Shown in pieces: positions 2,360-33,180 of a DNA stretch of 44,382 bases. Positions within the stretch are counted from its first letter, which is position 1. Every line of letters begins with the position of its first letter. The notes beneath the pieces were generated by a model, which was not told where the DNA came from, did not search any database, and worked only from the letters and a program-made list of their open reading frames with translations. This DNA comes from a virus: positions 1 through 44,382 of IMG/VR virus record IMGVR_UViG_3300008262_000190, one strand, 5' to 3'. Made by a program: the position numbers and the translations under genes.

Positions 2360-4039
2360 ATGAACGGCATCGAATCTGTCATCCAAGCTGGTCAGCCTCC
2401 CCGTGCGGCGTCCGCCAATGTGCCGAAGCCCCTGCAAGACTTGATGGGGTTGGTTAATTACCTGATGTCCCAAAAGCAGGGGGGCGGTTCGCCAACGCCT
2501 TCTGTGGCCGAGGGGATAGCAGCGGCAGCGGCGCAGAATATGGCCCCTGATATGGGGGCAGCAGATGAAGGTATGTCGGAGCCTGATCTTCAGGATGTCC
2601 GTGACACTGCCCTACCTGCGATGCGTCAAGAAGAGATGCAGGACCAGCAAGCCATGCAGCAGATGGCGCAGCAGATTCAGCAGCAAAACCGCCCTCAAGG
2701 TATCACCAGCTTGGAGCCGGATATCGTCCCCCTGCGTGCTGGCGGGATTTTGGGTTACGACGATGACGAACTCGGGTTCGCTCCGGGCGGTCTGACGCCT
2801 GAGTTTGCGGGAGCCGAAGGGGTTGCGTATTCTGAACCTCCCAGTAACGAGCCGCGTGTTGAAGCATACGGCCCTGGGGGGAAGAAGGGTATGTTCACCG
2901 CTGCCGAGCTTCGGCAGATGGGTTACCCAGAGGAGGAGATTAAGAGGCGTTTTGCTTCTCAAGCTCCAGCAGCGCCTTCGGCACCTGCCGCTGCGGCCCC
3001 GGCTCCGGCAGCGCCCATGAAGATTACTCGGGTGCCCAATGCCCCCGGCGCGGCCAAACCTACCACTCCCGCGATGCCCGCTGCTGAGCCGCCGGATGTA
3101 AACCCTTACGCAAAATACGTTGATGACGCGTTGAAGAGGCAGTTTGACCAACAGGCCCCCACGCAAACAGGGATCAACGCCGACATGGATGCGGCGCTCA
3201 AGGCTGCTGGTATTACCGGTCCCGCAGGGCAGAAGCTGGAGTCTGGCATCAAACAACTTCAGGAGATGTACAACAAGCAGGCGATGACGCATGAGGAGGA
3301 GAAGAAGGGTCGTGCTATGCGTGGGCTGCAGGAGTTTCTCCTTGCTGGGGCTCGGGGCGGAAAGGCTTGGCAGAACTTGGCAAACGCCGGGCGCGGTGGC
3401 CTCGCCTATGAAGATCGTATGAAGGCCCAAGACGCGGCGTTCAACAAGCTGCGAAATGAACAGCAGGCGATCATCATCAAGATGGAGTCCACTATAGAAG
3501 AAGCCCGCCGCGCCGAGGCTATGAACCGGTTCGACCTCTATCAAAAGAAGATGGACGAATACCAGCGCCTGCGTAAAGCGTTCGACAACAACCAGATGCA
3601 GTTGGCAGGGCAAGCGTTCCAAGTTGCTGAACAAGCAGCTACGCGTCGGGAAGCTACCACTGCTCGGAAAGAAATCGCCAACCAGCAAGCACAGTTGCGT
3701 GCGGCCCTCGCGGCGAACAAAGGTATCGGTGGGATCAAGCCTCCGTCGATGCGTGATGAGTTGGCCCTACGGCAGGATGTCAACTCCAAGTTCTTCACGG
3801 GGGCGGTCACCCCTGAGATGCGTGCTTACTTGAACCGCAGTGAAGACGGCAAGCGCGTGCTGAACGATATTGCCAACGGGCGCATCAAGTACGATCCTAG
3901 AACTGGCTGGGGCGCAGCAGAATCGGCTATTAACCGCGCTGCAGAGATGTACAAGCGCGACATCCTTGGTTCCACTGGGCGTGATTCTGGGATAACCTCC
4001 GTAGAGCAGGCAATGCGTGAGCTTGGAGGAGCCCAGTGA
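2360..4039 (+). CDS. Helical internal virion protein candidate
   Basis: About 559 residues from ATG 2360. I chose this start over an upstream TTG (2348) because GAGG at 2350-2353 sits six bases before it and overlaps the stop of the previous gene. The sequence is rich in Met, Gln and Ala. A long Ala-Pro linker lies near residues 215-250, and a long charged helical region near residues 310-470 (EEEKKGRAMRGLQEFL, then EARRAEAMNRFDLYQKKMDE) probably forms coiled coil. Its end overlaps the 2093-residue gene by GTGA, which implies translational coupling. In phages with a giant polyvalent ejected protein, neighbours of this kind are usually internal core proteins. No catalytic motif is seen. Function is inferred from position. 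Confidence 0.55.
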   Translation: MNGIESVIQAGQPPRAASANVPKPLQDLMGLVNYLMSQKQGGGSPTPSVAEGIAAAAAQNMAPDMGAADEGMSEPDLQDVRDTALPAMRQEEMQDQQAMQQMAQQIQQQNRPQGITSLEPDIVPLRAGGILGYDDDELGFAPGGLTPEFAGAEGVAYSEPPSNEPRVEAYGPGGKKGMFTAAELRQMGYPEEEIKRRFASQAPAAPSAPAAAAPAPAAPMKITRVPNAPGAAKPTTPAMPAAEPPDVNPYAKYVDDALKRQFDQQAPTQTGINADMDAALKAAGITGPAGQKLESGIKQLQEMYNKQAMTHEEEKKGRAMRGLQEFLLAGARGGKAWQNLANAGRGGLAYEDRMKAQDAAFNKLRNEQQAIIIKMESTIEEARRAEAMNRFDLYQKKMDEYQRLRKAFDNNQMQLAGQAFQVAEQAATRREATTARKEIANQQAQLRAALAANKGIGGIKPPSMRDELALRQDVNSKFFTGAVTPEMRAYLNRSEDGKRVLNDIANGRIKYDPRTGWGAAESAINRAAEMYKRDILGSTGRDSGITSVEQAMRELGGAQ

Positions 4040-7000
4040 AAGTAGTCCAGATACCCAACTATGGGCCTGTATCGTTTCCCGACTCCACACCGGATGAAGT
4101 AGTACAGGCTCAGGCACAGCGGCTTGCCGCTCTTGCAGAACAAAAGTTTGGGTATCGTCCGGACTACCGGGAACTGGGACTGGGGCAGCTTATCAAGGGC
4201 GGCTTTGGCCGCGCTGTGTCTGGCCTGGGTAGTACCGTCACCGACCTGATCCCCGCACTCGCGGGGTCTCTCGTTGGTAACGAGGCTTATGCTCGGGAAC
4301 AACTTGCGGAAGCTCAGGCCAAGCAACAAGAAGCCGAACTCAAGTACCCCACCGCGTTCAAGTCGTTTAGAGATATTCGCGGTGCGGGTGATCTGCCTGG
4401 ATACATAGCGGAGTCTCTTGGCGAACTGACTCCAGACATGATCGCCATGCTTACGGGTGCAGGTGCATCTGGAGCGATTGGTAAGCGTGTAGCGACCAGC
4501 GGGTTGGAACGTCTTGCTGCGGAGAAAGCCGCACAGACCGCCGCCACACGCGGGATGTCTGAAGACGCGGCGAAGATCTACGCCGAGAGACTCGCGGCAC
4601 GCGCTGCTGATCGTTATGGTGCAGAGGTTGCGGCTAGGGGGGCCTCACGCGGAACCAACATCGGTCTCGGCACCGCGTCGTTGGGGTTGAATGCCCCAAG
4701 CACATTTCAGGGCATCTTTGAGGAAACGGGTAACCTTGCTCCGGGTGTCGCAATTACTTTCGGTGCTGCGCAAGCTGCGTTGGATTCGATCATCCCTGCG
4801 CGTTTGTTGGGGCAGTTCTCCCCTGCCGCCCGTGCCAAGGTCGCCAATGAACTCATTCAGCAGTCCACGATTGTTCCTCAGTCGTTGAAGGTAAACATCG
4901 CCAAGGAATTGGCGAAGACTGGATTGGGCGAAGCCGCGACGGAAGGTGCGCAAGAACTTCTTGGTATCTTGGCCGAGCAGACTGCGGGTGCCACAGGAGA
5001 AGTATTCAGCCAGAAGAACATCGACCGTATCCTCAACGCCAGCATCAAGGGGGCGATTGGTGGCACTGCGTTCGGTGCTCCCGGTGCAGTTGCGCAAGCA
5101 CAGCGGCAGAAGTCTGAGGCTCAGCGAATCTTGGACGAGCGGGCTGCGGCGGAACAACCCCCCACGCCTGAAACCCCCGTTGCCCCTCCGGCACCTCCTG
5201 CCATTGAGCCGCCCGTTACTCCCGAAGCTCCCGTTACTCCCGAAGCTCCCGTTACTACTGAAGCTACTGCCCCCGTTACTACTGAAGCTACTGCCCCCGT
5301 TACTACTGAAGCTGCGGTTACTCCCGAACCTGCCCCCGCTGCGGAAGCCGCCCCTCCCGGTGCGCCCGAAATCCCTCCGATGGATGCGTGGCCTGTCCGT
5401 CTACTGGAAACCACACTGCAACATCAGTTGGCCAAGCCTCCAGAGCAACAAAAGTCGGATCTGATTCAGGCGGTCCAAGCCGAGCTTGATAAGCGTAAGG
5501 CTGCTGCCCCTCCGGAAGGACAACAAGATGCTGCTGGACAACCTACCCCTCCCGTTGTTGGAGAGGGCGTTTCAGTACCTGTGCAACCCGTTGGAGAAGC
5601 AACCCCCGCAGGAGTTGTCGCACCTGAACAACCTTCAGTGGTACGCCCTGCAGAACCTCCTCCAAGCCCTGCTATGGGAGAGGGAGTTGCACCCCCTGCA
5701 GTAGAAGCCGCCGCACCGCCGCCCCCTGTCACACCTCCTCCCCCACCGCCTGTTGCGCCCCCTGTTGCGCCGCCTGTCGCTCCCGCTGGCCCGGTAACCC
5801 AGGAATCCCTCCTTGAGGACCTGCGTCGGATCAATACGCGCAAGGGTGAGTTGATGACCGCCGATGGGCGGGAACCGTTCCGGCCACGACAAGGCAAGGC
5901 ACCTTCACCTGCACGTGCAGAGTACGAAGCGATTGAGGCCGAGCTTGAACAGAAGCTCAAGCAGTGGAAAGAAACTACTGGGTACGACTTCGACCCCTCG
6001 CTGCTGACCGCACCTACCCCTTCTACGCCTAAATTTACACCCCAACAAATGTTGGAGCGTGCAGAGGAAGCACAGCGCAAGGCCGATGAAGCTGCTGCAC
6101 CTCCCACTGAACCCGCGCCACCTATAGAAAAAGTTGCCCCACCTACGGAAAGCGATAAAAAATCTGCGCCAGCTATAGAAAAACCCGCGCCGCAGACTGA
6201 AAAGAAGGAAGCCAAACCTGCACCGGAAGACGCAGACCTGACGCCGGATGAGCGCAGGGCGCAGGAGAATGCACGCAAGACTTGGGCTGAACTGGACCGC
6301 AAGGGGTATCAACCTACGTCTGGTGAGAAGCTCCCGCCTCGGGACCGCAAGACCATTCTTGGTGTTGTAGCTACAACGCGCAAGCTCAGCGAGACCGCTG
6401 CCGCTGCCCGGGCGTACTTCTCCAAGTCATCGAACCTGATCGATGTCCTGTACGACATTGCGTTCGATGTGGTGAACCCGACCTCAAAGTACCGGCGTGC
6501 TGAAGGTGAAGGTTCGGTTGAGAAGGCGCGGTTCCAAGGCACGGGTGGTAAGGTTGCACAGCAAGCGCAGAAGTGGGTGCAGGAGAAGCTGTCTCCAGAC
6601 GCCAAGGCGCTGTACAACAAGTTTGTAGCGGAGCATCAGCGCTCCCTCAGAAATACCGAAGTTGGTATGGCTCGGCACGATGCCGAACAGGAACAAACCC
6701 GGGACTACGCGGAAGCTGCGGCAAAAGACACCATCGAAGCAGCACGAGAGATCGCTGCGTATGCCAAACCCAAGAAAGTGGCCCCGCCTGAAGTCTGGAG
6801 AGATCTTGGCTGGACACCGAAGAGTCTGGAAGAAGCTGGGCAGTTCGCAGTACCCCTGCACCCTGTGGTGCGCCATGCGCTGTACAACGGAGACCTGAAA
6901 CAGGCGTTGCGCCTACTCGCTGCGGAGTCCGAAGGACCTAGTGCTGAGCTGGCCAAGCTGTATCTGAGCATTCCGATGAACACCACCGTCCAGGCGGTGG

Positions 7001-10000
7001 ACAACTTGACTGATGCCACAGGTAAACGTGTAGCGGGGCTATACGACCCGCGCACCAACTCCATCTCGTTGGATTCCGTGTTCGGCATGAACAACCATGT
7101 GTTGTTCCATGAACTGGGGCATGCAATGACCTCACACGTCACTGCCAACCCGATGAACCCCTACACGAAACAACTTACCACGTTGTTCAACGATGTAAAG
7201 GACAGCCTCGACACCGCATACGGTGCCACAAGTCTGGATGAGTTCGTAGCGGAAACCTGGGCCAACGAGGAGTTCAAGGCGAAGCTGAACTCCATCAACC
7301 CCAAGGGCGCGGCAATCACGGTATGGGAGCGGTTCGTCAACATCGTCCGCAACATGTTCCGCAGCTTCATGGGTAAGCCCTCGGTATCTATCGAGACTGC
7401 GTATGACTCAGCCGACCGTGCGATCAAGGCTATCCTGTCTGCAGCCCCGGAGTACCGCGAAGCGGATCTGCTGTTTGCAGCGACGGTGAACCCGAAAGCG
7501 CCTATCGTCTCTCGCGCAATCGACTCGATGTTTGACTACCCCGCGCAAGTTGTCGGTGAAGATGCTGCCAACGCTGCCAGCAGATTCTTTGCCACGGCTG
7601 GGGACACTGCTCGGCGGATTGGTTTCTCGGTGATGCCTCTTGAGGTGTTCGTAGACGTAGCCAAGAAGTACCTACCTCAAGCACCGCGCATCAATGAGTT
7701 GGTGCGTGAACGCGCCGGGGATGAGAACGCTCGGAACCAGAAGATTGAAGGGGTGGTCCGCAAGGCTGAAGAGTGGGCTCGTCGTTCGGGTCCGACCGCA
7801 ACAGAACGGTTTGATACCGTGGTCTACGACAGCACCACGCTCAAGATCGACCCCACTCGGCCCCGCAAGTTCTACGAAGACAAGTACGCACTTGCCTCGG
7901 CAGTGGATCTACAGAATGCTCTCGATACCTGGGATCGTCTGAACAAGTTGTTGGACTCCACGCCCGGGGCACGTAACCTGTACATCAACATGCGTGATGC
8001 TTACGCAGAGTTGTACAACGAACTCCTTGGTGCAATCGACTCTCGTGTGGATTCATCTATAGATGACCCCGCTGCCCGTGTACGGTTGAAGGATGAACTG
8101 CATGCCAAGCTAGCGTCCAAGGGGGAAATCGACCCGTACTTCCCACTGACCCGTAACGGCAACTACTGGCTGTCGTACAACGCGAAGGATGCCAAGGGGC
8201 AGACCGAACTCTACGTGGAAGCGTTTGAATCGCCTCGGGAGCGTGACCGCGCGATTGCTGCAGTGAAAGCTGCAGGTGCCACCGACGTACAGAAGTTCTC
8301 CAACGTACGAGAACTGTCTTACAAGAACGCCCCGCCCGCGTCGTTTGTACGCGGTATTCTGGAGACGATGGAGAAGAGCCGCCCGAAGGGTTCGGTGGAG
8401 CAACAACGCTTTGACGAGGCTATGGAGTCCGTCTTGCGTATGTATCTGACTACGCTGCCGGAAACCGCGATTGCCCAGTCATTCCAACGTCGTAAGGAGA
8501 CCGAGGGCTTCAAGAAAGACTCCATCCGTGCGCTGCGTGAGAAGACGTTCTCGATGTCTCGGCAGTTGTCGAACATGAAGTACGCAGCCCGCATGTACGA
8601 AGTGCAGCAGGATATGCGCGAAGACGTGATCAAGATGGGCAAGGGCGCTGCCGAAGACAACCAGCTTGCCAAGGAATATCTTGACGAGATGGAGCGCCGG
8701 ATCAAGTTCGCTGTCAGCCCCACTGTCAGTCAGACGGCACAGCTTATCAACACGGTCGGCTTCAACTACTTGCTCGGCTTCAACGTCTCCTCGGCTTTGG
8801 TGAACTTGACGCAGGTTCCGATCATCGTCATGCCGATGTTGGGTGGCAAGTACGGCTACGGAGATGCTGGTAAAGCAATTACCCGTGCGTACAAGACGTT
8901 CATGTCCAGCGGGTTCGGTAGAGAAGTAGAAATTCTCGGGGCCAAGGGTGAGAAGGACAAGCGGCGTGCCGCTCCTTCCCTGGATAACTACGACTTCAGC
9001 GACCCTAATCTACCCAAAGAAGTCAAGCGGTACGAGGCTCTTGTGCGCGAAGCAAACAAGATGGGGCAGTTCAACCGCTCCATGATGTACGACACATTGG
9101 AGGTTGATGATCGTAAAAGCGCCCTGACTCGGATAAACGCATTCAGCGGGTTCATGTTCCACCATGCCGAGCGCCTGAACCGGGAAGTCTCCATGATGGC
9201 TGCGTATGACTTGGAGTTGCAGCGCCTCAACGGTAAAGATGCGACCGCAGAAGAGCGTGCGCTATCGGACGCGGACAAGGAAACACGTGCCGCCCATCAA
9301 GCGATCTACTTGGCAGAAATGACCAACGGCGGCTCCTCCGCAGCTACCGCACCGCCCATCGCGCAGAATGCCGTGGGTAAGGTCTTGTTCATGTTCAAGA
9401 AGTACGGCGTCTTGATGAACTACCTGTTGTTCAAGACTGCCAAGGAAGCCCTGCGGGGGGAGACTCCTGAAGTCCGTCGCGCTGCGTTCAAGCAACTCGC
9501 GGGCATCATGGCTACGTCTGGGTTGTTTGCTGGTCTGCAGGGTATGCCGTTGTTCGGTGTGGTCGCCATGCTGTACAACATGTTCAAGGAAGATGACGAC
9601 GAAGACTTCGGCGCTGTGGTGCGTGGGTTCACGGGCGAGTCCATGTACAAAGGACTGGTAAACGAGGTAACTGGTCTCAGCATTGCCGAGCGAGTTGGCC
9701 TGAGCAATCTGATCTTCCGCACCAGCCCGGTGTCGTCCGGCTCTGAAACGCTCGGTGAATGGGCTGCACAAACTTTCGGGGGTCCCGCCTACGGTATCGC
9801 TAGTCGCCTGCAACGTGGTTTACAGATGATCAACGACGGGGAGTATCAGCGCGGTATGGAGGCTATGGTGCCGGTGTTTGCGGCTAACCCCATGAAGGCG
9901 GTACGGTTTGCGACAGAAGGTGCGACCACCCTTCGCGGCGACCCCATCGTCGGAGACATTGGGCCTTGGAATGTGGCAGCACAGATCTTTGGCTTTGCCC

Positions 10001-10317
10001 CTGCAGAGTACAACAAGCAGCTTGAGATCAATTCGATGCTGAAGGGTATCGACAAGGCGGTGACAACCAACCGAACCAAGTACCTGCGGGAGATGTACAC
10101 CGCAAGTCGGATGGGGGATATTGACGGTGCGTTGGAGGCACGCGAGAAGCTGCAGGAGCTTTACGTCAAACACCCGGGACTCGGTGATATGGAGGCAACC
10201 ATCAAGCGGTCGCTGGCCCAGCACGAGCGGACCACCCAGACGATGTACCACGGCGTTGTGCTGAGTAAGTCCCTACGCGATGAACTGCTGCAGACCGCAG
10301 CCGAGCAAGAGGACTAA
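4036..10317 (+). CDS. Giant polyvalent internal virion protein with metallopeptidase motif
   Basis: A 2093-residue protein starting at GTG 4036 (GGAGGAG upstream; GTGA overlap with the previous stop). The N-terminus (KVVQIPNYGPVSFPDSTPDE) is followed by small-residue hydrophobic helices near residues 50-170. A Pro/Thr/Glu repeat linker covers about residues 370-600. A zincin motif HELGH is at residues 1025-1029, with DEFVAETW about 45 residues later as the likely third zinc ligand. The C-terminal third holds a hydrophobic segment near residue 1830 followed by an acidic run, and resembles the PLxRFG-type tail of phage polyvalent proteins (FMFKKYGVLMNYLLF, LIFRTSPVSSG). Such proteins are packaged and injected with the DNA; the protease could cleave host or virion proteins. 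The family match is from memory and the ejection role is inferred. It ends one base before the poly-A side of the early terminator. Confidence 0.65.
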   Translation: MKVVQIPNYGPVSFPDSTPDEVVQAQAQRLAALAEQKFGYRPDYRELGLGQLIKGGFGRAVSGLGSTVTDLIPALAGSLVGNEAYAREQLAEAQAKQQEAELKYPTAFKSFRDIRGAGDLPGYIAESLGELTPDMIAMLTGAGASGAIGKRVATSGLERLAAEKAAQTAATRGMSEDAAKIYAERLAARAADRYGAEVAARGASRGTNIGLGTASLGLNAPSTFQGIFEETGNLAPGVAITFGAAQAALDSIIPARLLGQFSPAARAKVANELIQQSTIVPQSLKVNIAKELAKTGLGEAATEGAQELLGILAEQTAGATGEVFSQKNIDRILNASIKGAIGGTAFGAPGAVAQAQRQKSEAQRILDERAAAEQPPTPETPVAPPAPPAIEPPVTPEAPVTPEAPVTTEATAPVTTEATAPVTTEAAVTPEPAPAAEAAPPGAPEIPPMDAWPVRLLETTLQHQLAKPPEQQKSDLIQAVQAELDKRKAAAPPEGQQDAAGQPTPPVVGEGVSVPVQPVGEATPAGVVAPEQPSVVRPAEPPPSPAMGEGVAPPAVEAAAPPPPVTPPPPPPVAPPVAPPVAPAGPVTQESLLEDLRRINTRKGELMTADGREPFRPRQGKAPSPARAEYEAIEAELEQKLKQWKETTGYDFDPSLLTAPTPSTPKFTPQQMLERAEEAQRKADEAAAPPTEPAPPIEKVAPPTESDKKSAPAIEKPAPQTEKKEAKPAPEDADLTPDERRAQENARKTWAELDRKGYQPTSGEKLPPRDRKTILGVVATTRKLSETAAAARAYFSKSSNLIDVLYDIAFDVVNPTSKYRRAEGEGSVEKARFQGTGGKVAQQAQKWVQEKLSPDAKALYNKFVAEHQRSLRNTEVGMARHDAEQEQTRDYAEAAAKDTIEAAREIAAYAKPKKVAPPEVWRDLGWTPKSLEEAGQFAVPLHPVVRHALYNGDLKQALRLLAAESEGPSAELAKLYLSIPMNTTVQAVDNLTDATGKRVAGLYDPRTNSISLDSVFGMNNHVLFHELGHAMTSHVTANPMNPYTKQLTTLFNDVKDSLDTAYGATSLDEFVAETWANEEFKAKLNSINPKGAAITVWERFVNIVRNMFRSFMGKPSVSIETAYDSADRAIKAILSAAPEYREADLLFAATVNPKAPIVSRAIDSMFDYPAQVVGEDAANAASRFFATAGDTARRIGFSVMPLEVFVDVAKKYLPQAPRINELVRERAGDENARNQKIEGVVRKAEEWARRSGPTATERFDTVVYDSTTLKIDPTRPRKFYEDKYALASAVDLQNALDTWDRLNKLLDSTPGARNLYINMRDAYAELYNELLGAIDSRVDSSIDDPAARVRLKDELHAKLASKGEIDPYFPLTRNGNYWLSYNAKDAKGQTELYVEAFESPRERDRAIAAVKAAGATDVQKFSNVRELSYKNAPPASFVRGILETMEKSRPKGSVEQQRFDEAMESVLRMYLTTLPETAIAQSFQRRKETEGFKKDSIRALREKTFSMSRQLSNMKYAARMYEVQQDMREDVIKMGKGAAEDNQLAKEYLDEMERRIKFAVSPTVSQTAQLINTVGFNYLLGFNVSSALVNLTQVPIIVMPMLGGKYGYGDAGKAITRAYKTFMSSGFGREVEILGAKGEKDKRRAAPSLDNYDFSDPNLPKEVKRYEALVREANKMGQFNRSMMYDTLEVDDRKSALTRINAFSGFMFHHAERLNREVSMMAAYDLELQRLNGKDATAEERALSDADKETRAAHQAIYLAEMTNGGSSAATAPPIAQNAVGKVLFMFKKYGVLMNYLLFKTAKEALRGETPEVRRAAFKQLAGIMATSGLFAGLQGMPLFGVVAMLYNMFKEDDDEDFGAVVRGFTGESMYKGLVNEVTGLSIAERVGLSNLIFRTSPVSSGSETLGEWAAQTFGGPAYGIASRLQRGLQMINDGEYQRGMEAMVPVFAANPMKAVRFATEGATTLRGDPIVGDIGPWNVAAQIFGFAPAEYNKQLEINSMLKGIDKAVTTNRTKYLREMYTASRMGDIDGALEAREKLQELYVKHPGLGDMEATIKRSLAQHERTTQTMYHGVVLSKSLRDELLQTAAEQED
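5215..5330 (+). repeat. In-frame Val-Thr-Pro-Glu-Ala repeats
   Basis: Tandem units of 18 bases (gttactcccgaagctccc) and then 24 bases (beginning gttactactgaagctactg) encode VTPEAP and VTTEATAP. They lie in the Pro-rich linker of the giant polyvalent protein. Three successive virion genes thus each carry an in-frame low-complexity repeat. Confidence 0.85.
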
Positions 10318-18011: not shown

Positions 18012-19863
18012 AACTTTTTCCTACTCCGCTTTCACAGTTAACAGGCAGTCCTCCTGCCCACTTCGGCACCCACCGCATACATTCTTCAACATACGCCCGA
18101 GCTTCATTTACTTCTTCGTCTCTGCAGATGCACGCGATAGCGTCATGCACTGTCAGCACAACTTTGTACTTCATGGCAATGCGCAGCATCTGTTCCCCGA
18201 TGATGCAGCGGGCAATGGCTTGGCAGACGTTCTCGATGACCTTCCCGCCGTAAATGCGGGTGCGCCCCTTACGGGTCTTGTAGGTGAACTCGATCCCCTT
18301 CTCACCCTCCTGCGCCTTCAGGTCATCGTACCGCAGCATCAGCTTGCTAGGCAACAGGATTGCTTTCTCCACGGGCACTATTGACAGCACACCGGAGCGC
18401 CCCAGCATGGCCGGCTCGTCCCGCAGCATCGCGACCAGCATGAGCTGCGCCTGTCGCCACAAACCGGTGATCGCCGGGTTTGACTTCCGGTATACCTCCA
18501 CGATTCGGCGGGCTTCGTCCAGATCCACGTTCGCCTCTGAGCCCCTTAACTGGGCGTGAAACTTCACCGCGCCCATACCGTACCCGGCACCAAGGATCGT
18601 TGTCTTACCTACAAACCGTTCAGGGTCTGTGATCTCGGTGGTTGGCTTACCGTAAATTTGTGATGCCATCAGCTTGTACGGGTCGTGCTTAAACTGTTTC
18701 TTGGGTACGCCCGCCAGGATCTCCTCGTTGTTCTTTCTGAACACCTCCAGCAGATCCTCCTGCCCTGCAAGCCACGCCAGCACCCGTGCCTCAATCTGTG
18801 AGGAGTCGGAGTCAATGATGCTGTACCCTTCGGGCGCGAGGATGGCGCTCTTCAGCTTCCCCGCGTTCTCTCCTCGGCTCGGCAGGTTCTGCAGGTTGAT
18901 CTTGTCGTCCCCGCCGAACCGCCCCGTGTGCGCTGCGTAATACTTGATCGGCACCGGCAGTGCGCCCCGCTCGGCTATGTCAATGAACCGTTGGGTGCGA
19001 GTCTCTTCCAGCGTTGACTTCATTCCAAGACGTGCCGATACCAACCCTTGCACGCGCCAGTCCGGATGATGGAGCAATGCGATGAAGTCTTCGTCGTTCT
19101 TGGCAAACGCATGCGTTTCTTTACCTGTGGTCAGACTCGTCTTCCTCGGCGGCGTTACACCAAGATTGGCCAACACCTCTGCGAACTTTGGGTTGCTCAT
19201 CAGATCCGATGCTTCCACACCACTGTCGGCCAGCAACTTGGACTTCTGTTCCTGAATACTCTGCAGGTGCTCTTGCAAAAGATCCTTGTCCAGCCGCAGC
19301 GTAGGTTCAATGAACATACGAAGCGTTGTATCTATGAGCTTCAGTTCTTTCTTGGGGAACAGGGGTAAGAACTTCTTGAACAGCAGGTACGTAAGCTCCA
19401 CGTCGGTGACGCAGTAGTCCCCGTACCGAGCCAGCCGCTCCTTGGAGAAGTCCTCGCGGCGCATACCCGCTACGGTCAGCACCTCCACGCCCTTGGTGCC
19501 GAGCCCCTCGCGCTGCGCTAGCGCTGCCAGGGAGTTACTGACTTCCACACCGTGCAGAGCCCGCCCCATGCACAGAGTATCAAGCCATAGGTTAGGCAGA
19601 ATGCCAAACCGCCAAGCCAGAATGGCCCCATCAAACATAGCGTTATGAGCCAACGCCATAGAGTTTTCCCAGTCAAACTGGAGTAACCAATCTTTGATCT
19701 GCTGTTCAGTCCCACTTGCCCACTCCACTACGCCGTTGTTGACCTTGAGCCCCACGCCGATAACCTCAAACCGTTTATCGCGTATGTACTCTTCAGTTGT
19801 AAGTTTCGTGAGGCTGAACTCCCTGTCGTAGTACGTTTCAAAGTCAAGAGTTATCAGGTCCAT
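17998..19863 (-). CDS. Family A DNA polymerase with 3'-5' exonuclease
   Basis: 621 residues from ATG 19863. I chose this start because GGAG lies at the right distance and the product then begins MDLITLDFETYYD, the exonuclease motif I; the longer open frame adds 27 residues overlapping the upstream gene. Exonuclease motifs are DFET near residue 7 and the later RYGDYCVTDVELTY. Polymerase motif A is DSDSSQIEARVLAW near residue 350, motif B is RFVGKTTILGAGYGMG, and motif C is VLTVHDAIACI near residue 572. It is the replicative polymerase of the phage. It overlaps the glycosyltransferase gene by 20 bases. Confidence 0.95.
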   Translation of the reverse strand: MDLITLDFETYYDREFSLTKLTTEEYIRDKRFEVIGVGLKVNNGVVEWASGTEQQIKDWLLQFDWENSMALAHNAMFDGAILAWRFGILPNLWLDTLCMGRALHGVEVSNSLAALAQREGLGTKGVEVLTVAGMRREDFSKERLARYGDYCVTDVELTYLLFKKFLPLFPKKELKLIDTTLRMFIEPTLRLDKDLLQEHLQSIQEQKSKLLADSGVEASDLMSNPKFAEVLANLGVTPPRKTSLTTGKETHAFAKNDEDFIALLHHPDWRVQGLVSARLGMKSTLEETRTQRFIDIAERGALPVPIKYYAAHTGRFGGDDKINLQNLPSRGENAGKLKSAILAPEGYSIIDSDSSQIEARVLAWLAGQEDLLEVFRKNNEEILAGVPKKQFKHDPYKLMASQIYGKPTTEITDPERFVGKTTILGAGYGMGAVKFHAQLRGSEANVDLDEARRIVEVYRKSNPAITGLWRQAQLMLVAMLRDEPAMLGRSGVLSIVPVEKAILLPSKLMLRYDDLKAQEGEKGIEFTYKTRKGRTRIYGGKVIENVCQAIARCIIGEQMLRIAMKYKVVLTVHDAIACICRDEEVNEARAYVEECMRWVPKWAGGLPVNCESGVGKSYGDC

Positions 19864-21208
19864 GTTGTTCGTTCTCCGAGTTCTCAGGTTGTTTCTTTTC
19901 CCCGAAGCCATCGCGCACGCGCATGTTCGGGTAGTCGATGCCAAACTTGTCAGCGTAATCAGCTAGGGTACGTGCAGTGCCGAGCCCGTAAGCCCCAAGG
20001 TTTGCCCCGCCCACCAGCAAACTTTTCAGCCGCTTGTTTGACTGCTCATCGTATGTCCACCAGCGCTTAGCCCGCTGTTTGTCATCCCCCTCGTTCCAAT
20101 GCGGCGCACGGACGGAGCACTTCGTATCATTGAACAGGTGGAAGACAGGTTGTCCTGCAACGAAGAACAGATCCCACCCGTGGGTGAAAGCACGTACCGT
20201 GAAGTTGTGCTCCTCACCGTAGAAGTACAGGGCCGGGTCAATCAACACTTGCCTGAACAGGTCTGCAGGAGCGAACACGCAGCCTGCAGATATACGGCTA
20301 CCCTCCAGATCATCGGCGTGTGCGCATATCGCACCCGCATAGTTGATAGCCACGGCGCTCATCGGCCCATCTTGGGCGGGCTTCTGCCCTACGGTTGCTG
20401 AGCCCCAGCGATCCAGCTTCACCTTGTTGTTCTCATAGGTGAACCCATACGGCATCATGGACAGGTAAGGCTTGCTTGACTTGGACCTCAAGCGTTCTAT
20501 TGTTTGTATAAACCATGTATCCCATCCGGGATCGAACCGCGAATGTGAATCGACCTGTAGCGCGTAGTCCTCGTCGTACAAAAGCGTGAACCCCACCGCT
20601 CGTGCCCAACAAGGGCCACGGCTGAACTTGTAGTCCACAAACAGATACTCGATCTGCGCAGGTGCGGCCAACGCCAGCTTATCTTCTCGGGCAGGGTACA
20701 CGGTCTGATCAACTACGGCAAACCGCAGTCGTTCAGGGTGCTCGGCCTTGGCTACTGCATCTTCGACCGTCGCCCACAGTTCATGGTCATCACGGTACGA
20801 AGCGATGTTCACGAAGATGGTGGGCAGCGGTGCGGCTTCGGCGCTTGTACTTGTATATACATAAACACCGATGTCGTCCTCCACGTACATCTCTTGCGGT
20901 GCGGGCAGCGCGGCGACGAGTTCACTGCTTCGTTTTACACGCAGAACCACCGTGCTGCAGCACTCGGACATCCGGTGCATCAGAAACAGGGCGTCGGACA
21001 CACTGAAACGCTCAAGCACCCGACCAATCAACCCAACGTCGTACTTGCTCTGAGGCTTCCACGCAGCTAGATCGTCCGCCATAGTCCACTCGACATCGTG
21101 TGCAACGCAGTGGCGCAATGGTGACCAATCAGGGTCGGCGTCCTTGATTTCGAGCACGGACTTCGGCTTGCGTGCTACAAGAAGTTTTCTTATGACCTCA
21201 AGCGGCAC
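19844..21208 (-). CDS. GT60-like (GlcNAc) glycosyltransferase with N-terminal MTase-like domain
   Basis: 454 residues starting at GTG 21208, with GGAGGAG upstream. Residues 1-120 resemble a degenerate class I methyltransferase fold (DVGLIGRVLERFSVSDALF) without a clear glycine-rich SAM loop. From about residue 128 the pattern TIFVNIASYRDDHELWATVE followed by HPERLRFAVVDQ, and DEDYALQVDSHSRFDPGWD near residue 215-230, matches the GlcNAc-transferase family related to Skp1 GlcNAc transferase, with DSH as the metal site. It would move a sugar from a nucleotide sugar to an acceptor. Its position overlapping the DNA polymerase makes DNA base glycosylation possible, but virion or surface-glycan modification cannot be excluded. 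Family fairly sure, target unknown. Confidence 0.78.
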   Translation of the reverse strand: MPLEVIRKLLVARKPKSVLEIKDADPDWSPLRHCVAHDVEWTMADDLAAWKPQSKYDVGLIGRVLERFSVSDALFLMHRMSECCSTVVLRVKRSSELVAALPAPQEMYVEDDIGVYVYTSTSAEAAPLPTIFVNIASYRDDHELWATVEDAVAKAEHPERLRFAVVDQTVYPAREDKLALAAPAQIEYLFVDYKFSRGPCWARAVGFTLLYDEDYALQVDSHSRFDPGWDTWFIQTIERLRSKSSKPYLSMMPYGFTYENNKVKLDRWGSATVGQKPAQDGPMSAVAINYAGAICAHADDLEGSRISAGCVFAPADLFRQVLIDPALYFYGEEHNFTVRAFTHGWDLFFVAGQPVFHLFNDTKCSVRAPHWNEGDDKQRAKRWWTYDEQSNKRLKSLLVGGANLGAYGLGTARTLADYADKFGIDYPNMRVRDGFGEKKQPENSENEQHGPDNS

Positions 21209-25614: not shown

Positions 25615-25908
25615 CTATAAAAGAGATACGAGGTCTTGCTTCAGTGTGCCCACGCCATCCTCGTTAATGACAAGGGCTATCCCGCCAGAAGTGGTTATCT
25701 GGCTAAGATTCTTTTCCTGCAGTGCGGTTGTCCTGCCCTTACCTGCCTTGCATTCGATTCCGATGAACCGACCACGTAGGCAGGCAAGGAAGTCGGGTGC
25801 GCCTGAGTTGCCATATCCGCCTGTGACGGGCATGACGTAGTACGCACCTAACTCATCAAGGACTTTCCGAACGAGGAGCTTTACTTTCCTCTCGGGTGTG
25901 AGTGCCAA
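25615..25908 (-). CDS. VRR-NUC nuclease
   Basis: 97 residues. The PD-(D/E)XK core shows E6, then GAPDFLACLRGRFIGIECKA with D39, E52 and K54, and Q64 in the following helix. This is the minimal VRR-NUC fold found in phages, where it acts as a Holliday-junction or flap nuclease. AAGGAGAAACG before ATG 25908 fixes the start, although 53 bases lie within the previous gene. It would resolve recombination intermediates or trim branched DNA before packaging. Confidence 0.88.
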   Translation of the reverse strand: MALTPERKVKLLVRKVLDELGAYYVMPVTGGYGNSGAPDFLACLRGRFIGIECKAGKGRTTALQEKNLSQITTSGGIALVINEDGVGTLKQDLVSLL

Positions 25909-26176
25909 TCGTTTCTCCTTGGGAACACCGAATCCAATAAACGTACATTGAAATACGTCTACCGATCCCTGGTAACTCTGCGTTTACCTTATCTGGGTCA
26001 AGCGTCATCAGAACAGCCAGCTTACGCTGCATCCACTCTGGAAGACACTCGGCACCATCATAGTTAACTACTGACACCTGCGCAAGCGGAGAATACGTGA
26101 CCACGATGTGAGGTGGTGTGAGATCCACTCGGCAGATGTCGTCTAGGTTTACACAAGATGCGATAGGCTCAAACAT
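25856..26176 (-). CDS. Small protein resembling the C-terminus of its upstream neighbour
   Basis: 106 residues starting 8 bases inside the previous gene and running 53 bases into the VRR-NUC gene. Residues around PEWMQRKLAVLMTLDPDKVN and MYVYWIRCS can be aligned by eye with the C-terminal EDLQSKLATLSMMPENTY and DTLYWVEQD of the 305-residue upstream protein, suggesting that the two share a domain. The long downstream overlap is unusual for this genome. Probably a partner in the MoxR/VWA module; function unknown. Confidence 0.6.
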   Translation of the reverse strand: MFEPIASCVNLDDICRVDLTPPHIVVTYSPLAQVSVVNYDGAECLPEWMQRKLAVLMTLDPDKVNAELPGIGRRISMYVYWIRCSQGETIGTHTREESKAPRSESP

Positions 26177-27086
26177 CCTGCTCGACCCAGTACAACGTGT
26201 CTGATACCTTCATACCGAGATCTGTTGTGTAGGTGTTCTCCGGCATCATTGACAACGTAGCGAGCTTGGACTGCAGATCTTCTGACAGGTCAGACATCTT
26301 TACCAGCGACTGCGGGCGGTTGTCCGGATGCACGTTCTTGACGTAGTACTTCCCGATCAGGTCGGTCTTGAAGTTGATGATCTCGGCCATGAGGTTGTCG
26401 TCGCCCTGCCCCATAGTGCGCACCCGCACAAACAGCGCACCGACCTTGCGCACCATCGCGGTCTTGGAAGTAAGCTCGGCTTCCTTGTATTCTCGTGCAG
26501 CTTTCTGGAACTCCGGTGTGACAAAAGTCACGTTCTGGGTCAGCAGGTTCTGGAACTCTACAGAAAATACACTCGCGCTACGGCAGGCGGACAACAGGTC
26601 ACCGCTCTGTGTGATCTTGTTATTCTTAGTCTCCCGGATGCCGGAGTGGAACGTATCGTAGGACTCACTTGCGATCTCCACGCATGACATCGGCGTGAGG
26701 TATTTCAGTGCGCTCTTCACTGCACGCTTCAGGTCCTCCGTCTGCACCATGTGGTGCTGACTGCGCCAGTCCGCCACCTTGCCGTTCTTGATGTTGCGGC
26801 TGCTCACCATGTACACCGTGTTGGTGTCACGTATGGCGTAGTCACCGTAGCCGACCCGACCCAGCGCGTACTCGTGGTTGTCCATGTACACGTACACCTC
26901 GCGGATATAGGGTATGACCCGATCCACGGCAAACCGTAGCCACGGCGCTGCTCTACGCAGTTCGTTCACGAACTCCGCCAAGTTCGGATGCACGTCGTTG
27001 GCGTGCGGCCCCATGCAATCCCAACCCTTGGCATCGCACACCGTGAACTCCCTGATAGCGGACACTGGAGTATTTGTGTAACCCAT
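26169..27086 (-). CDS. Unknown protein of the MoxR/VWA module
   Basis: 305 residues with GGAGAAAGATC before the ATG. There is no hydrophobic segment and no recognisable catalytic motif. The N-terminal part (FTVCDAKGWDCMGPHANDVH, then VIPYIREVYVYMDNHEYALG) looks beta-rich; the central part is helical and basic. It follows the VWA gene directly and shares its leader type (TTATCAAC then GAGAAAGATCATG) with the MoxR ATPase gene and the 301-residue gene. Co-location suggests a substrate, adaptor or regulator of the ATPase. It is not a VWA or AAA+ protein by sequence. Confidence 0.7.
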   Translation of the reverse strand: MGYTNTPVSAIREFTVCDAKGWDCMGPHANDVHPNLAEFVNELRRAAPWLRFAVDRVIPYIREVYVYMDNHEYALGRVGYGDYAIRDTNTVYMVSSRNIKNGKVADWRSQHHMVQTEDLKRAVKSALKYLTPMSCVEIASESYDTFHSGIRETKNNKITQSGDLLSACRSASVFSVEFQNLLTQNVTFVTPEFQKAAREYKEAELTSKTAMVRKVGALFVRVRTMGQGDDNLMAEIINFKTDLIGKYYVKNVHPDNRPQSLVKMSDLSEDLQSKLATLSMMPENTYTTDLGMKVSDTLYWVEQDV

Positions 27087-27125
27087 GATCTTTCTCCTAA
27101 GTTGTTGACAGTTGATAACTCTCGT

Positions 27126-28481
27126 TCACCGATCCCACTCGACGTGAATGGTCTTTCCCGTGGTCGCCTCGGCGCTGGCGTTGCCGACCACACACCACAA
27201 CACAGGGCACGGCCAGTTGTCGCCCCAGTTGTTGCCTACGTAACCGTCAGTGAGCATGACGCACACCTGCGGCTTCATGTTGTTTGCGTTCAGATACATC
27301 GGCACGCAGTCGGGGCTGGTGCCACCGCCGCCTTCTGGCTTGGTTGTTTTGGTGAGCGTGTCCAGTTGGTCTTGCGTGTACCGCTCGTCCTTACACACCT
27401 GCGTGTCCCAGTACAGCAGACGCACTGCCTCGGGCCGAACCGTCTCACAGATACCCGCGATCTCGCCCAGGAACTGCGCGATCTCCTGCCCACCGATGGA
27501 GCCTGACGTGTCCACGCCGATTACGATTTCGCCAATAACTTCGGATACACCGGACGGCATGTAGATACCTGCGGCCAGATACCTGCGGTTGGGCCTGCGC
27601 CACGTGCTGAAGTCGTTACCCGTACACACCGAGTGCAGGTACTCCCGCAGCGCGTCTTGCCACCGCACCTTGGACTTGAGCAAGTCCTCCATCTCGCGCA
27701 TACCCCCGCTACCCACCTTCCCGGCAAGCAGCGCACCCTGACGCACAGCCTCGTCCATCTTGCGTCCGATCTCGGCCTTCTGCTCGTCGCTCAGCTCGGC
27801 AGCGCCCTCCCAGTCGTGGTCGTCAAAGCCTTGTGGTGCTTTGTTCTTGGGTGGTGTACCACCCGAAGAATTTTCGGACACATCATTTTTGTCAGACTTA
27901 CCGTCACAACCGTCACAACCGTCACCATCCCCCTGCCCCTCGCCTTGGCCCTGATCTTGCGGTTGTTGCGGTTGCTGTTGTTGGTCCTGCTCCTGCTTGA
28001 GGATACGGAAGATCTTGGCTGCGTCCATCCCGGCGAACCGCTTGTCTGCACAGCCCCCGCATGACGGCATGGCCATGAAATTACGCAATGTCGCGTTAAG
28101 GTTCGATATTTCTTCGGCTGCGTCCAGCAGGAACAAGTTGATCACGTGGTCGCAGGCTTGGTTGGCCAGCGACGGGTCCTCCTCATACAGGTGCTCCCAC
28201 GTAGTCAGGTGCTTGAACATGCAGTGATACGTTTCGTGCAGGATGAGGAAGCGAAGCTCCGCATCGTTGAGTGACTCCACGAACTTCTCCGCGTACACGC
28301 ACTCGATACCGTTAGTACACGCAGTCCCGGTCTTGGCTTTTGGGTCGTCCGCGTTCTGTATGCGGTGCCCCACCAACAGCAGCACACCAGACAGTGCAGT
28401 GAAGCGTTCCACTGCGAGGATATCCACCAGCGCCTTGCTCAGGCGCTGATGCGCGGTGAGTTTTTTACCGATCATCAGCAT
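27126..28481 (-). CDS. DUF2201-type metallopeptidase-like / VWA domain protein
   Basis: 451 residues. The N-terminal domain has HETYH at residues 82-86 (LILHETYHCMFKH), as in DUF2201 putative metallopeptidases. A Gln/Gly/Asp-rich linker spans about residues 165-215, with cysteines. The C-terminal VWA-like domain has the MIDAS signature DTSGS at residues 324-328, and later TSPDCVPMYL and LTDGYVGNNW. Such proteins pair with MoxR-family AAA+ ATPases, which remodel or activate a target using the VWA protein as adaptor. The MoxR gene lies 45 bases upstream on the same strand. The pairing is established for the families; the target here is unknown. Confidence 0.88.
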   Translation of the reverse strand: MLMIGKKLTAHQRLSKALVDILAVERFTALSGVLLLVGHRIQNADDPKAKTGTACTNGIECVYAEKFVESLNDAELRFLILHETYHCMFKHLTTWEHLYEEDPSLANQACDHVINLFLLDAAEEISNLNATLRNFMAMPSCGGCADKRFAGMDAAKIFRILKQEQDQQQQPQQPQDQGQGEGQGDGDGCDGCDGKSDKNDVSENSSGGTPPKNKAPQGFDDHDWEGAAELSDEQKAEIGRKMDEAVRQGALLAGKVGSGGMREMEDLLKSKVRWQDALREYLHSVCTGNDFSTWRRPNRRYLAAGIYMPSGVSEVIGEIVIGVDTSGSIGGQEIAQFLGEIAGICETVRPEAVRLLYWDTQVCKDERYTQDQLDTLTKTTKPEGGGGTSPDCVPMYLNANNMKPQVCVMLTDGYVGNNWGDNWPCPVLWCVVGNASAEATTGKTIHVEWDR

Positions 28482-28526
28482 TTTGTGTTTCTCCGATTCA
28501 TTACTTGTTGATACGTATACCCTCGT

Positions 28527-29657
28527 TTACATTTTATCCGCGGCAAACATGTAGTTGTTCTTCAGGCACCAGTCCATGTATGCCTTGCTCGTCGTGACCT
28601 CGATGAGTCGCTTGTTAGCCTGCCCGTTCTTGGACTTAGCCACTGCGTTACGCACGGCGTTGGCGAACAAACCCTGAGCTTCTTTAGGCAGACGCTCCAT
28701 GTACTTCACCCACGACTCGGTCCAGTTACGCTCGATGGTCTGCAGCGTGCGGTGCACCACCATACAGATAGCGGTCTCGTTTGTAGGCACCTTGGCTGTG
28801 TCGGGCGTGTCCTTGATCTCCTGCAGCTTGGGCATCTGATCACCGATCTTCACGTACGTAGCCAAGCTACGTGCCGACGCCACACCGATAGTGCCCATGA
28901 GTGCTGCGGTCAACTCGTGATCGGACAGGAACTCCCGCTGCTTGAGCCAATGTGAAGCCAGTTCTGCTGTGCGTGGCGTGAAGAAACTTACCCGTCCCGG
29001 CGCTGCAGGGTGGAAGATGTGCTCGTTCTCGTCGGGCTTGCTCACCTGCTCGAAACTCTGGAACAACTGCGGGTTCTCCATGACCCAAGCAATCATGATC
29101 GGGTCGATACCTGCGTCGATAGCGAAGTCCTCCACCCACTCGACGTTAGTGGGCTTGCGCGTGCGGATCACAGTAATACGGTTGCGTGCATGTGCAGGCA
29201 GCAGATCACCGACCCCCTCGGCCCCGAGGTTGGTCGTCAGGAACACGATGGAATCTTTATGCAGGCCCGTACGCTCAAGGATGATCTTGAGCATGGCGTT
29301 TTTCACAGCGGGGTTGGCCTTGCCGAACTCGTCGACCATCAGGATCACAGGCCCGGGGATGTGCAGACCCAACTCCTCGTGCGGCACAAACTGAGCGCAC
29401 ATGGCTTCACCATCGGTGGCCTCCTTGATCCGGGGCAGCATGATGTCACCGAGATCTTTAGTGGTGCAGTCGAAGTACACGGGGCGGTGCGTAGGCAGCA
29501 TCTTTGCCAGAGTCTTCAGCACGGACGACTTGCCCGTACCCATGTGACCCTGTAGCAGCACGGTGTTCTTGGAGCCGCACAGGCGGATCATGTTCGTCGC
29601 TTGCGCAATCGACACGTCATACAGGGCAGCGGTGGCGTTGAAGTTGGAATTACTCAT
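28527..29657 (-). CDS. MoxR/CobS-like AAA+ ATPase
   Basis: 376 residues. Walker A is GHMGTGKS (residues 37-44), Walker B VILMVDE (104-110), sensor 1 IVFLTTN (N143), and the arginine-finger region LLPAHARNR follows near residues 152-160. A helical lid and a C-terminal extension complete it. This is the MoxR/CobS clade, which works with VWA proteins as a hexameric chaperone or metal-insertion machine. It is followed by the DUF2201/VWA gene and preceded by a 301-residue unknown. Its leader carries TTATCAACC and GAGAAAGACCATG. A phage-specific remodelling role, for instance on a host enzyme or on the phage capsid, is open. Confidence 0.9.
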   Translation of the reverse strand: MSNSNFNATAALYDVSIAQATNMIRLCGSKNTVLLQGHMGTGKSSVLKTLAKMLPTHRPVYFDCTTKDLGDIMLPRIKEATDGEAMCAQFVPHEELGLHIPGPVILMVDEFGKANPAVKNAMLKIILERTGLHKDSIVFLTTNLGAEGVGDLLPAHARNRITVIRTRKPTNVEWVEDFAIDAGIDPIMIAWVMENPQLFQSFEQVSKPDENEHIFHPAAPGRVSFFTPRTAELASHWLKQREFLSDHELTAALMGTIGVASARSLATYVKIGDQMPKLQEIKDTPDTAKVPTNETAICMVVHRTLQTIERNWTESWVKYMERLPKEAQGLFANAVRNAVAKSKNGQANKRLIEVTTSKAYMDWCLKNNYMFAADKM

Positions 29658-29707
29658 GGTCTTTCTCTCAGGTTGTTACAGGTTGATAAACAAACACACA
29701 AACACAC

Positions 29708-30613
29708 TCACCAAGACATGTTGGACAGGATGCTGTCCACGGTACGCTTGGTCTCCTGCCGGAAGCTGTCGTCTTCACGCAGTCCGTCAGCCGTCACGCC
29801 CATCAGGGCGCTATCCAGTTGCATGTGCAACTGAGTCAGTCGGGAATCTCCAGTGATGTTGAAGTCCTTCAACATACCCAAACTCTCACGCACGTTGTCA
29901 ACCAACGTGTCGCGGAAAATCTTTCTCGTCCCCTTGTCTGCGTTCTCGGGGTAGTCCAGGCGCTCGGACATGTGCTTGAGTGCGTCGTACACGCGCTCCC
30001 ATACGTCCTTCATCATGCCGTTGATACGGTCTGTGTACACACGCGCATACTCATCTCGGAGGTACGCCTCGGCCTCGTCCTGAACTTGTGAATACATGTT
30101 GGCTTCAGGCACAGGTGGGTAGGTGAAGAAGAAACGGAACTTGTCCTGCAGAGATGCAGGGGTGGGGTACTCGTCGGGGTTGTACAGGGCACCCAGCTTG
30201 GCCTGCACGTTGGTACGTGCATAGTCGTATACCGCAAGGAAGTTAGTCACGAGACGGTCGAACTCGGTCTGCATCCCCGTGATCTCGCGGTGGAAGTCAG
30301 GGAACTTGGACATGGGAAAGCTACGCTGACCCAGGTCACCCCACGGTGAGGTAGATGAGTAAACGAAGTTACGTGCGTTGGCTGCGAACTTACGCACAGC
30401 CTCCAGCTCTTCGCAGTCACCAAGCAGCTTCTTGGTGGTATTGAGCAGCGTCTTGTCTGCGTTGGACGCGATGGCTGCGTCACGCGTGGCGTTCTTGTCT
30501 TGCTTGCGTCCGGACCACACGGAGATGGACAGCTCCACCAGACGGATTGCCGTGGTGAGTTTAGGCACGTTGACAGGTGCCGGGGTCGGGGCGTGGATGG
30601 ATTCGAAGTTCAT
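29708..30613 (-). CDS. Unknown helical protein, first gene of the MoxR/VWA transcript
   Basis: 301 residues from ATG 30613, which has GAGAAAGATC before it. An upstream in-frame ATG at 30724 would lie beyond the promoter -10 box and start point, so it cannot be used from that promoter. The protein is mostly helical: RLVELSISVWSGRKQDKNAT near the N-terminus, FPDFHREITGMQTEFDRLVT in the middle and a C-terminal ADGLREDDSFRQETKRTVDS. No motif is recognised. It is transcribed from the perfect-spaced promoter at 30672-30700 and precedes the ATPase, so it is probably the core partner or target-specific component of the module. Confidence 0.75.
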   Translation of the reverse strand: MNFESIHAPTPAPVNVPKLTTAIRLVELSISVWSGRKQDKNATRDAAIASNADKTLLNTTKKLLGDCEELEAVRKFAANARNFVYSSTSPWGDLGQRSFPMSKFPDFHREITGMQTEFDRLVTNFLAVYDYARTNVQAKLGALYNPDEYPTPASLQDKFRFFFTYPPVPEANMYSQVQDEAEAYLRDEYARVYTDRINGMMKDVWERVYDALKHMSERLDYPENADKGTRKIFRDTLVDNVRESLGMLKDFNITGDSRLTQLHMQLDSALMGVTADGLREDDSFRQETKRTVDSILSNMSW

Positions 30614-30640
30614 GATCTTTCTCGCTTTCGGGGTTGATGC

Positions 30641-30661
30641 GGTGGGAGCCGATCTCCCACC
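30641..30661 (-). promoter_or_regulatory. 5' hairpin of the MoxR/VWA transcript
   Basis: A perfect 8-bp stem GGTGGGAG/CTCCCACC with a 5-base loop starts a few bases after the predicted transcription start. A hairpin at the extreme 5' end usually protects mRNA from 5' processing. The second promoter of the module has the same hairpin in the same place (32435-32455). Confidence 0.7.
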
Positions 30662-30671
30662 GTCAAATGAC

Positions 30672-30700
30672 ATTGTAACACTACATGACACAAGTGTCAA
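30672..30700 (-). promoter_or_regulatory. Strong sigma70 promoter of the MoxR/VWA genes
   Basis: On the minus strand TTGACA (30695-30700) and TACAAT (30672-30677) are exactly 17 bases apart, a near-consensus sigma70 promoter. The first gene begins about 50 bases after the predicted start point. It is almost a copy of the promoter at 32467-32495. Use of host polymerase at early times is the simplest reading. Confidence 0.88.
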
Positions 30701-32406: not shown

Positions 32407-32434
32407 CGGGTGTAGCCTTTCTCTCGGTTGCAGC

Positions 32435-32455
32435 GGGGAGAGCCAATCTCTCACC
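32435..32455 (-). promoter_or_regulatory. 5' hairpin of the second transcript
   Basis: GGGGAGAG/CTCTCACC forms an 8-bp stem with one mismatch and a 5-base loop, placed like the hairpin at 30641-30661 relative to its promoter. The conserved position with changed bases on both sides of the stem supports selection for the structure rather than the sequence. Confidence 0.65.
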
Positions 32456-32466
32456 GTCTAAATAAC

Positions 32467-32495
32467 ATTGTATCACAACAAGCGGGGAGTGTCAA
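32467..32495 (-). promoter_or_regulatory. Strong sigma70 promoter, paired with the 30.7 kb promoter
   Basis: TTGACA (32490-32495) and TACAAT (32467-32472) on the minus strand, 17 bases apart. The -35 and -10 boxes and the bases after the -10 match the 30672-30700 promoter, while the spacer differs. It drives the four to five genes 32107 to 30731 and probably reads on into the second promoter. Confidence 0.88.
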
Positions 32496-32646: not shown

Positions 32647-32988
32647 AATGTTCGGAAATGGCCTCCGAACACAATCCGAACACTGCACCCCTAATGTTCG
32701 GAATCGGGCAGGCCATTTTTCCCCCTTAGTACCCCCTGACCTACCGAACATTCGAACATTATAAGATTTAATAAGATTTACTAAGATTTACTATATAAGA
32801 TACACCACTAGGTGGTGGTAGATGGGACTGCTTACAACGCGTTGACACTTCTAGATAATGTTCTGTGACCATCCGAACATTCCGAACATTGCAAGAACAT
32901 TAGGCACCGAAAACAGGTGATGGTCGCCAGATTGGCTACAGAACAATCCGAACATTCCAAACTACTACATTAGAACAACCCGAACATT
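32647..32988. repeat. Ten TCCGAACATT-type iterons in both orientations
   Basis: Exact or near copies lie at 32647-32656 (reverse), 32664-32673, 32675-32684, 32693-32702 (reverse), 32743-32752, 32751-32760, 32872-32881, 32881-32890, 32947-32956 and 32979-32988. Five are exact (32647, 32693, 32872, 32881, 32947); the rest differ at one or two end positions. Two pairs overlap by one or two bases. The core CGAACA is invariant. Such clusters are binding sites for an initiator or regulator. Confidence 0.85.
32757..32801. repeat. AT-rich 10-bp repeats beside the iterons
   Basis: ATAAGATTTA occurs twice and CTAAGATTTA once, in a perfect 10-base register at 32761-32790, then CTATATAAGA. This is one helical turn per unit and the most AT-rich stretch of the intergenic region. 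It resembles a duplex-unwinding element of an origin. Confidence 0.75.
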
Positions 32989-33048
32989 TGGTCGTAGCTA
33001 CGTTACGAACAATACGTTTTAGGGGCCGATTGGGCCGCTCGCCGCTCG

Positions 33049-33180
33049 CCGCTGCTCGGAGAACTGGTTTCGGGGTGTTGGGGGTGCTGAAATGGGTGTA
33101 GCGTTGTTACGGGCAATGTGGTCCGCACCGCTGCGCGGGGCTGGTTGTGCCCCTCCCCGCTGCTCGGAGAACTGGTTTCG
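33049..33180. repeat. 24-bp direct repeat pair
   Basis: The identical 24 bases, beginning ccgctgctcggagaactggt, lie at 33049-33072 and 33157-33180, 108 bases apart start to start. They lie outside any supported gene and beyond the iterons. They could be a second set of protein sites or the trace of a small duplication. Confidence 0.8.

Follow-up and report, generated by a model that had tools for sequence, protein, structure and literature searches.

The cellular MoxR-VWA pairs RavA-ViaA, CbbQO and NorQD share with the phage locus described here the general logic of a MoxR ATPase acting with a VWA/MIDAS protein, but unlike it they lack a DUF2201 peptidase-like domain. Counterparts are also found in phages. 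The gp24 and gp25 proteins of N4, together with their Schitoviridae equivalents, are an ATPase and a DUF2201 protein homologous to those of our locus; the pair belongs to the core genes of N4-like phages, with its role given as unknown, and in N4 itself these are middle genes (PMC4193335). The same two domain architectures make up the MoxR and vWA-metallopeptidase pair described in jumbo phages (Iyer et al. 2021, PMC7824862). Among plasmids, ORF100-103 of pCAR1 run in the order ATPase, DUF3150 protein, VWA protein some 10 kb from SSB and RecT, and the set is given as conserved in R478, Rts1, SXT and R391 (PMC2642839); it differs from our locus in that its VWA protein is NorD-like without DUF2201 domains and its ATPase is of the CbbQ type.

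The window analyzed here, 44,382 bases long, covers an entire IMG/VR virus record, in which neither a terminal repeat nor a tRNA was found; several relatives reach 57-68 kb, and part of the genome may therefore be missing from it. Genes of structural type, that for terminase among them, point rightward, and those for a DNA polymerase A, a PD-(D/E)XK nuclease, an SNF2 helicase and a DUF927 protein point leftward. Five minus-strand ORFs (p301, a MoxR-like ATPase, a DUF2201-VWA protein, p305 and p106; hereafter the module) lie on the leftward side at the end nearest the promoter, with the nuclease, polymerase, helicase and DUF927 genes downstream of them and the strongest leftward terminator-like site below the module at 10343-10323. 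This layout suggests one long leftward unit that would be expressed early by host RNA polymerase. A sequence-only reading of the window had placed the five ORFs on one transcript behind a near-consensus promoter, and this description holds: the ORFs are real and conserved at the minus-strand positions given below, and the ATPase and metallopeptidase/VWA pair sits in one promoter-headed unit. The arrangement is far beyond chance, since relatives of the ATPase are encoded in 262 viral stretches and their neighbors keep order and strand. A sixth ORF, p97, is a further member of the block beyond the five first pointed out.

The promoter of the module (30672..30700, minus strand) is of the extended -10 sigma70 type, TTGACA-N17-TACAAT, with an 11/12 match to consensus and TG before the -10. 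The record has only one other near-consensus extended -10 promoter, its twin at 32495-32467. The module promoter is retained in aligned relatives, and the pattern stands upstream of p301 in 27 of 61 loci against 0.2 expected, with no occurrence upstream of MoxR, VWA or p305 across that 61-locus set. Where the transcript is predicted to start lies a hairpin (30641..30661, minus strand) with an 8-pair consensus stem, three pairs of which have changed on both sides, and thus covary, in 6 sequences; this leader is also present behind the twin promoter at 32495.

The 376-aa ATPase (28527..29657, minus strand) matches AAA_5 (4.8e-6) and the ATPase family phrog_1297 (3.4e-40), and its Walker A GxxGxGK, Walker B DE, sensor-1 N143 and Arg-finger-like R160 are invariant. 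Only the general AAA_5 and AAA models exceed their Pfam cut-offs; the dedicated bpMoxR model reaches 15 bits, below its cut-off of 27, and as such we call the protein MoxR-like only. Its 451-aa partner (27126..28481, minus strand) carries two Pfam domains above cut-off, DUF2201_N (metallopeptidase-like; 1.1e-24, 88.0 bits against 23.2) and DUF2201 (VWA-like; 2e-19, 70.3 bits against 26.4), and we rejected the PHROG label of 'HNH endonuclease' for it. An HExxH motif, HETYH, spans residues 82-86 (28224..28238, minus strand) and a MIDAS DxSxS spans residues 324-328 (27498..27512, minus strand). H82, E83, H86 and D111, together with the MIDAS residues D324, S326, S328, T388 and D412, show no variation across 48 clade members, in which the two middle letters of HExxH vary; in 13 distant homologues D111 and the MIDAS set are again invariant and HExxH is kept in 12. 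A Variovorax plasmid copy has lost the HExxH glutamate, and peptidase activity would therefore not be needed everywhere. Proteolysis of a host target, which the sequence-only reading had suggested from HETYH beside a VWA domain, would be possible; the loss of VWA and HETYH conservation in homologues that was to refute that reading was not observed.

For p301 (29708..30613, minus strand), the ATG at 30613, which gives 301 aa, fits best as the start, because the longer TTG ORF begins at 30724, upstream of the promoter. The window's own copy scores 21.1 bits against Pfam DUF3150, under the 24.9 cut-off; the family is matched by 45 of 59 p301 homologues (best 2.8e-7), and hhalign aligns p301 over nearly its full length with the DUF3150 neighbors of the plasmid and MinM2 pairs discussed below (99.8-99.9%, against 0.7% for an unrelated control protein). 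All hhalign figures given here are single pairwise comparisons and not a database search. By this family-level homology, p301 is a diverged DUF3150 protein. An AF2 model of p301 built on 59 sequences found no match in a fold search of the PDB at E ≤ 0.001, and tblastn of the window p301 against cultured phages returned nothing; when a more central homologue served as the query, MinM2 and two Planktothrix phages were recovered.

Two other proteins of the module, p305 (26169..27086, minus strand; 46 homologues aligned) and p106 (25856..26176, minus strand), fall in no described family by our searches and share a domain, p106 being a paralogue of the p305 C-terminal domain (hhalign 98.1%, E 8e-14) whose ORF has 8 bases in common with the end of p305. 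Of the three proteins that had been called unrecognized, these two keep that description and p301 loses it. The AF2 model of p305, built on 46 sequences, has a pLDDT of 86 and a pTM of 0.57; a fold search of the PDB gave no match at E ≤ 0.001, so that p305 is a confidently predicted protein without a PDB counterpart, and its matches in BFVD are uncultured phage proteins only. Searches of family collections with p305 members returned only weak, scattered matches, which we put down to chance, and tblastn of the window p305 against cultured phages found nothing. The protein diverges much faster than its neighbors, with a median pairwise identity of 0.25 against 0.73 for MoxR and 0.62 for VWA. We regard p305 and p106 as clade-specific accessories, plausibly adaptors or substrates. 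The adjoining p97 (25615..25908, minus strand) is a small Hjc-like nuclease, with a match to the endonuclease family phrog_93 (1.3e-12) and a weak one to PF01870 Hjc.

In 80 viral loci found with the ATPase, the VWA gene adjoins it in all 80 and p301 is present in 78; where the contig is long enough, p305, p106 and p97 come next with order and strand kept, a few being weak or missing. Loci found with p301 carry MoxR and its adjoining VWA gene in 52/52 cases with 3 kb downstream; among those extending 6.5 kb downstream, all 39 have p305 and p106, and 38 of the 39 have p97. When terminase and DNA polymerase served as queries independent of the module, and loci with at least 7 kb upstream were counted, 14/14 and 16/16 respectively carried it, with absent pieces mostly at or beyond contig ends. 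As terminase identity to that of the window is 64-89% in most of these phages, the linkage reflects core-genome inheritance: the module is core to a widespread clade of uncultured aquatic phages, and co-occurrence there is largely vertical. The block had been supposed from its size to matter to infection; its core status argues that it matters to the clade. In the co-occurrence check that had been proposed, the unknowns are conserved with MoxR/VWA in the clade, but vertical linkage says little about whether p305 and p106 bind the pair and cannot alone show their partnership. Spacing is more telling, since the median gaps in p301-MoxR-VWA are tight (61 and 39 bases), while that between VWA and p305 is often opened by about 1 kb (median 1039 bases) with p305 and p106 remaining together; two sub-blocks, p301-MoxR-VWA and p305-p106, are therefore indicated. 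A nucleotide search with the region found nothing in cultured phages, and none of the six proteins is encoded by HTVC027P or 023Pt_psg01, both covered in full, or within the first 50 kb of HTVC023P and of DSL-LC04, these four being relatives by terminase.

Outside the clade, the MoxR-DUF3150-DUF2201 triad recurs on proteobacterial plasmids and in the cyanophage MinM2. Cupriavidus pRK1-1, Rhodovastum RHOApb, Burkholderia pBVIE02 and Variovorax plasmids encode the three homologous proteins adjacently, in the order MoxR-DUF3150-VWA where the window runs DUF3150-MoxR-VWA, and no p305, p106 or p97 was detected near them. These plasmid triads also adjoin non-DNA genes, and any link to DNA metabolism is accordingly loose. 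In MinM2 the three genes lie on one strand with small ORFs between them, and the Planktothrix phages Pag-Yong1 and Pra-JY27 have a DUF3150 homologue, as MinM2 does. The 300- and 346-aa neighbors of the MinM2 triad, MM2_63 and MM2_64, were tested as p305 homologues and rejected. Neither DUF3150 nor p305, p106 or p97 was detected near gp24/gp25 of N4 and their Schitoviridae homologues; in the jumbo and other cyanophage loci that we read, MoxR and DUF2201 are present but no DUF3150 could be detected in the vicinity; and p305, p106 and p97 turned up in no N4-like, jumbo, cyanophage or plasmid locus examined. As such, the idea that the three unknowns form one cargo or adaptor set is not supported: p301 is the DUF3150 protein of the plasmid triads, and p305 and p106 did not turn up at the other MoxR/DUF2201 loci examined. 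Profile comparison by sequence did not find solved MoxR or VWA structures.

Our favored reading, to which we give an even chance, is that the module encodes an early ATP-driven remodeling and peptidase machine whose target is a complex of the host or of replication. Its three parts would be a MoxR-like AAA+ ring, the DUF3150 subunit p301 and the DUF2201 metallopeptidase-VWA protein. On the model of MoxR-VWA pairs already studied, the MIDAS of the VWA domain would dock cargo onto the ring, which would remodel it, and the HExxH domain would probably cut it; the target would most likely be a complex of the host, or one of replication or recombination, that is encountered early in infection, and p97 would be a nuclease of the same unit. 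We infer the complex, the remodeling, the peptidase activity and the early timing. Several results point this way: plasmids and MinM2 carry the triad independently of the clade, with its genes ordered differently; the related ATPase-DUF3150-VWA set of pCAR1 is near SSB and RecT; p301-MoxR-VWA are spaced tightly while VWA-p305 is often opened; the HExxH, D111, MIDAS and ATPase motifs are conserved; one of only two strong host-type promoters heads the module and leads into replication genes; the module is core in the clade; and the N4 gp24/gp25 genes are middle genes. Weighing against it are the vertical nature of the in-clade linkage, the Variovorax copy without the HExxH glutamate, the N4-like and jumbo pairs without a detectable DUF3150, and the looseness of the DNA link. 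A fuller version, less likely than not, is that the three-subunit machine, in plasmids and phages alike, is a protease acting early in DNA metabolism or in remodeling of the host, to which this clade added p305 and p106 as substrate selectors built on their shared, undescribed C-terminal domain. N4-like phages have the MoxR-like/DUF2201 pair among their core genes, and it occurs also in jumbo phages, cyanophages and plasmids, and DUF3150 as a recurrent third subunit, together with the position in a replication unit, would offer a concrete complex and an early-function hypothesis for the cultured relatives MinM2 and N4.

For the jumbo pair, Iyer et al. (2021) proposed a chaperone of virion assembly that processes structural proteins as well; that the module here has such a role instead seems to us somewhat unlikely. 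Virion assembly and peptide processing are the published idea for a homologous pair (PMC7824862), the pair does lie among structural genes in Escherichia phage 121Q and cyanophage S-TIM61, and virion proteins of an N4-like roseophage map near the gp24/gp25 homologues (PMC4193335). However, the module, unlike the 121Q pair, is in a leftward replication unit on the strand opposite to the structural genes, and it is because the module heads this unit that we favor the early machine; moreover, the same triad is present on plasmids, which make no virion, and middle timing in N4 (PMC4193335) also argues against assembly.

Host takeover or counter-defense, in which a protease or unfoldase would be directed to host targets by the fast-evolving p305 and p106, is unlikely. 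The strong host-type promoter, the conserved peptidase motif and the low identity of p305 beside MoxR and VWA are consistent with it, but relaxed constraint also fits the divergence of p305, and the module is fixed in every sampled member, which is unusual for an arms-race gene. PADLOC returned weak matches only, with no significant defense or counter-defense family, and with the vWA-MoxR ternary conflict systems (VMAP) in mind, no VMAP, beta-propeller or effector domain was found among the neighbors scanned. Very unlikely is an ATP-driven chaperone only, MoxR-VWA with or without DUF3150, in which the HExxH domain would have no peptidase activity and would serve as a structural element or a metal site; studied MoxR-VWA pairs do work without such a peptidase (PMC7159879) and one plasmid copy is missing the glutamate, but H82, E83, H86 and D111 do not vary within the clade, and nearly every distant homologue retains them. 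A metal chelatase module is highly improbable: CobS/CobT are likewise an AAA+ plus VWA pair, but this likeness is analogy only, as the partner matches DUF2201 and not a CobT family, no CobN-like match was found among the large ORFs scanned (in a record that may be incomplete), and the 2093-aa ORF matches LPD39 only.

Whether the three genes of the triad had moved together was addressed with trees of MoxR, VWA and DUF3150. Their deep branches are too long or too weak to place the window clade. The phage clade forms one group in the trees, and MinM2 adjoins the Rhodovastum plasmid in the MoxR tree and, more weakly, in that of DUF3150.

Two near-identical leaders, each comprising a leftward promoter and a 5'-hairpin, lie at 32420-32495 and 30632-30700 and are predicted to drive, between them, the module and the leftward unit that immediately precedes it. 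Upstream of the leftward promoters, CCGAACATT recurs in seven exact copies within 32647-32988, against a chance expectation of 0.26 over the window as a whole; the copies occupy both strands, and all of them fall within a single gene-poor stretch, an arrangement that is iteron- or operator-like. A 32-base direct repeat (33041-33180; 94% identity, copies 108 bases apart) is also present, just downstream of a strong leftward terminator-like site at 33279-33258.

The DUF2201 protein of the module (27126-28481) matches the PHROG family phrog_1314 at 2.1e-89. This family carries the label HNH endonuclease, which looks like a misannotation, and one that would propagate into phage annotations. The 75-kb Acinetobacter baumannii record pRBH2-3 is filed as a plasmid. 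It carries the MoxR/DUF2201 pair together with a gene for RNA polymerase, arranged in an N4-like layout, and may represent a phage or phage-plasmid. In a Candidatus Manganitrophus plasmid, DUF3150 (the family of p301) is found beside an AAA ATPase, DUF1257 and DUF2997, with no VWA gene annotated nearby, a setting that differs from the other DUF3150 contexts.

Within the related phage genomes, the DNA polymerase matches of several (G013, G014, G015, G009, G019 and G010) contain at least one in-frame stop codon, and those of G011 and G009 are fragmented; the candidate causes are inserts, errors in sequencing and readthrough of stops. In the window, the start of the polymerase ORF is overlapped by a GlcNAc-type glycosyltransferase gene (19844-21208; PF11397, 1.1e-42) that sits amid the replication genes. 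A 2093-aa ORF with the large-polyvalent-protein domain LPD39 (4036-10317) adjoins the structural genes.
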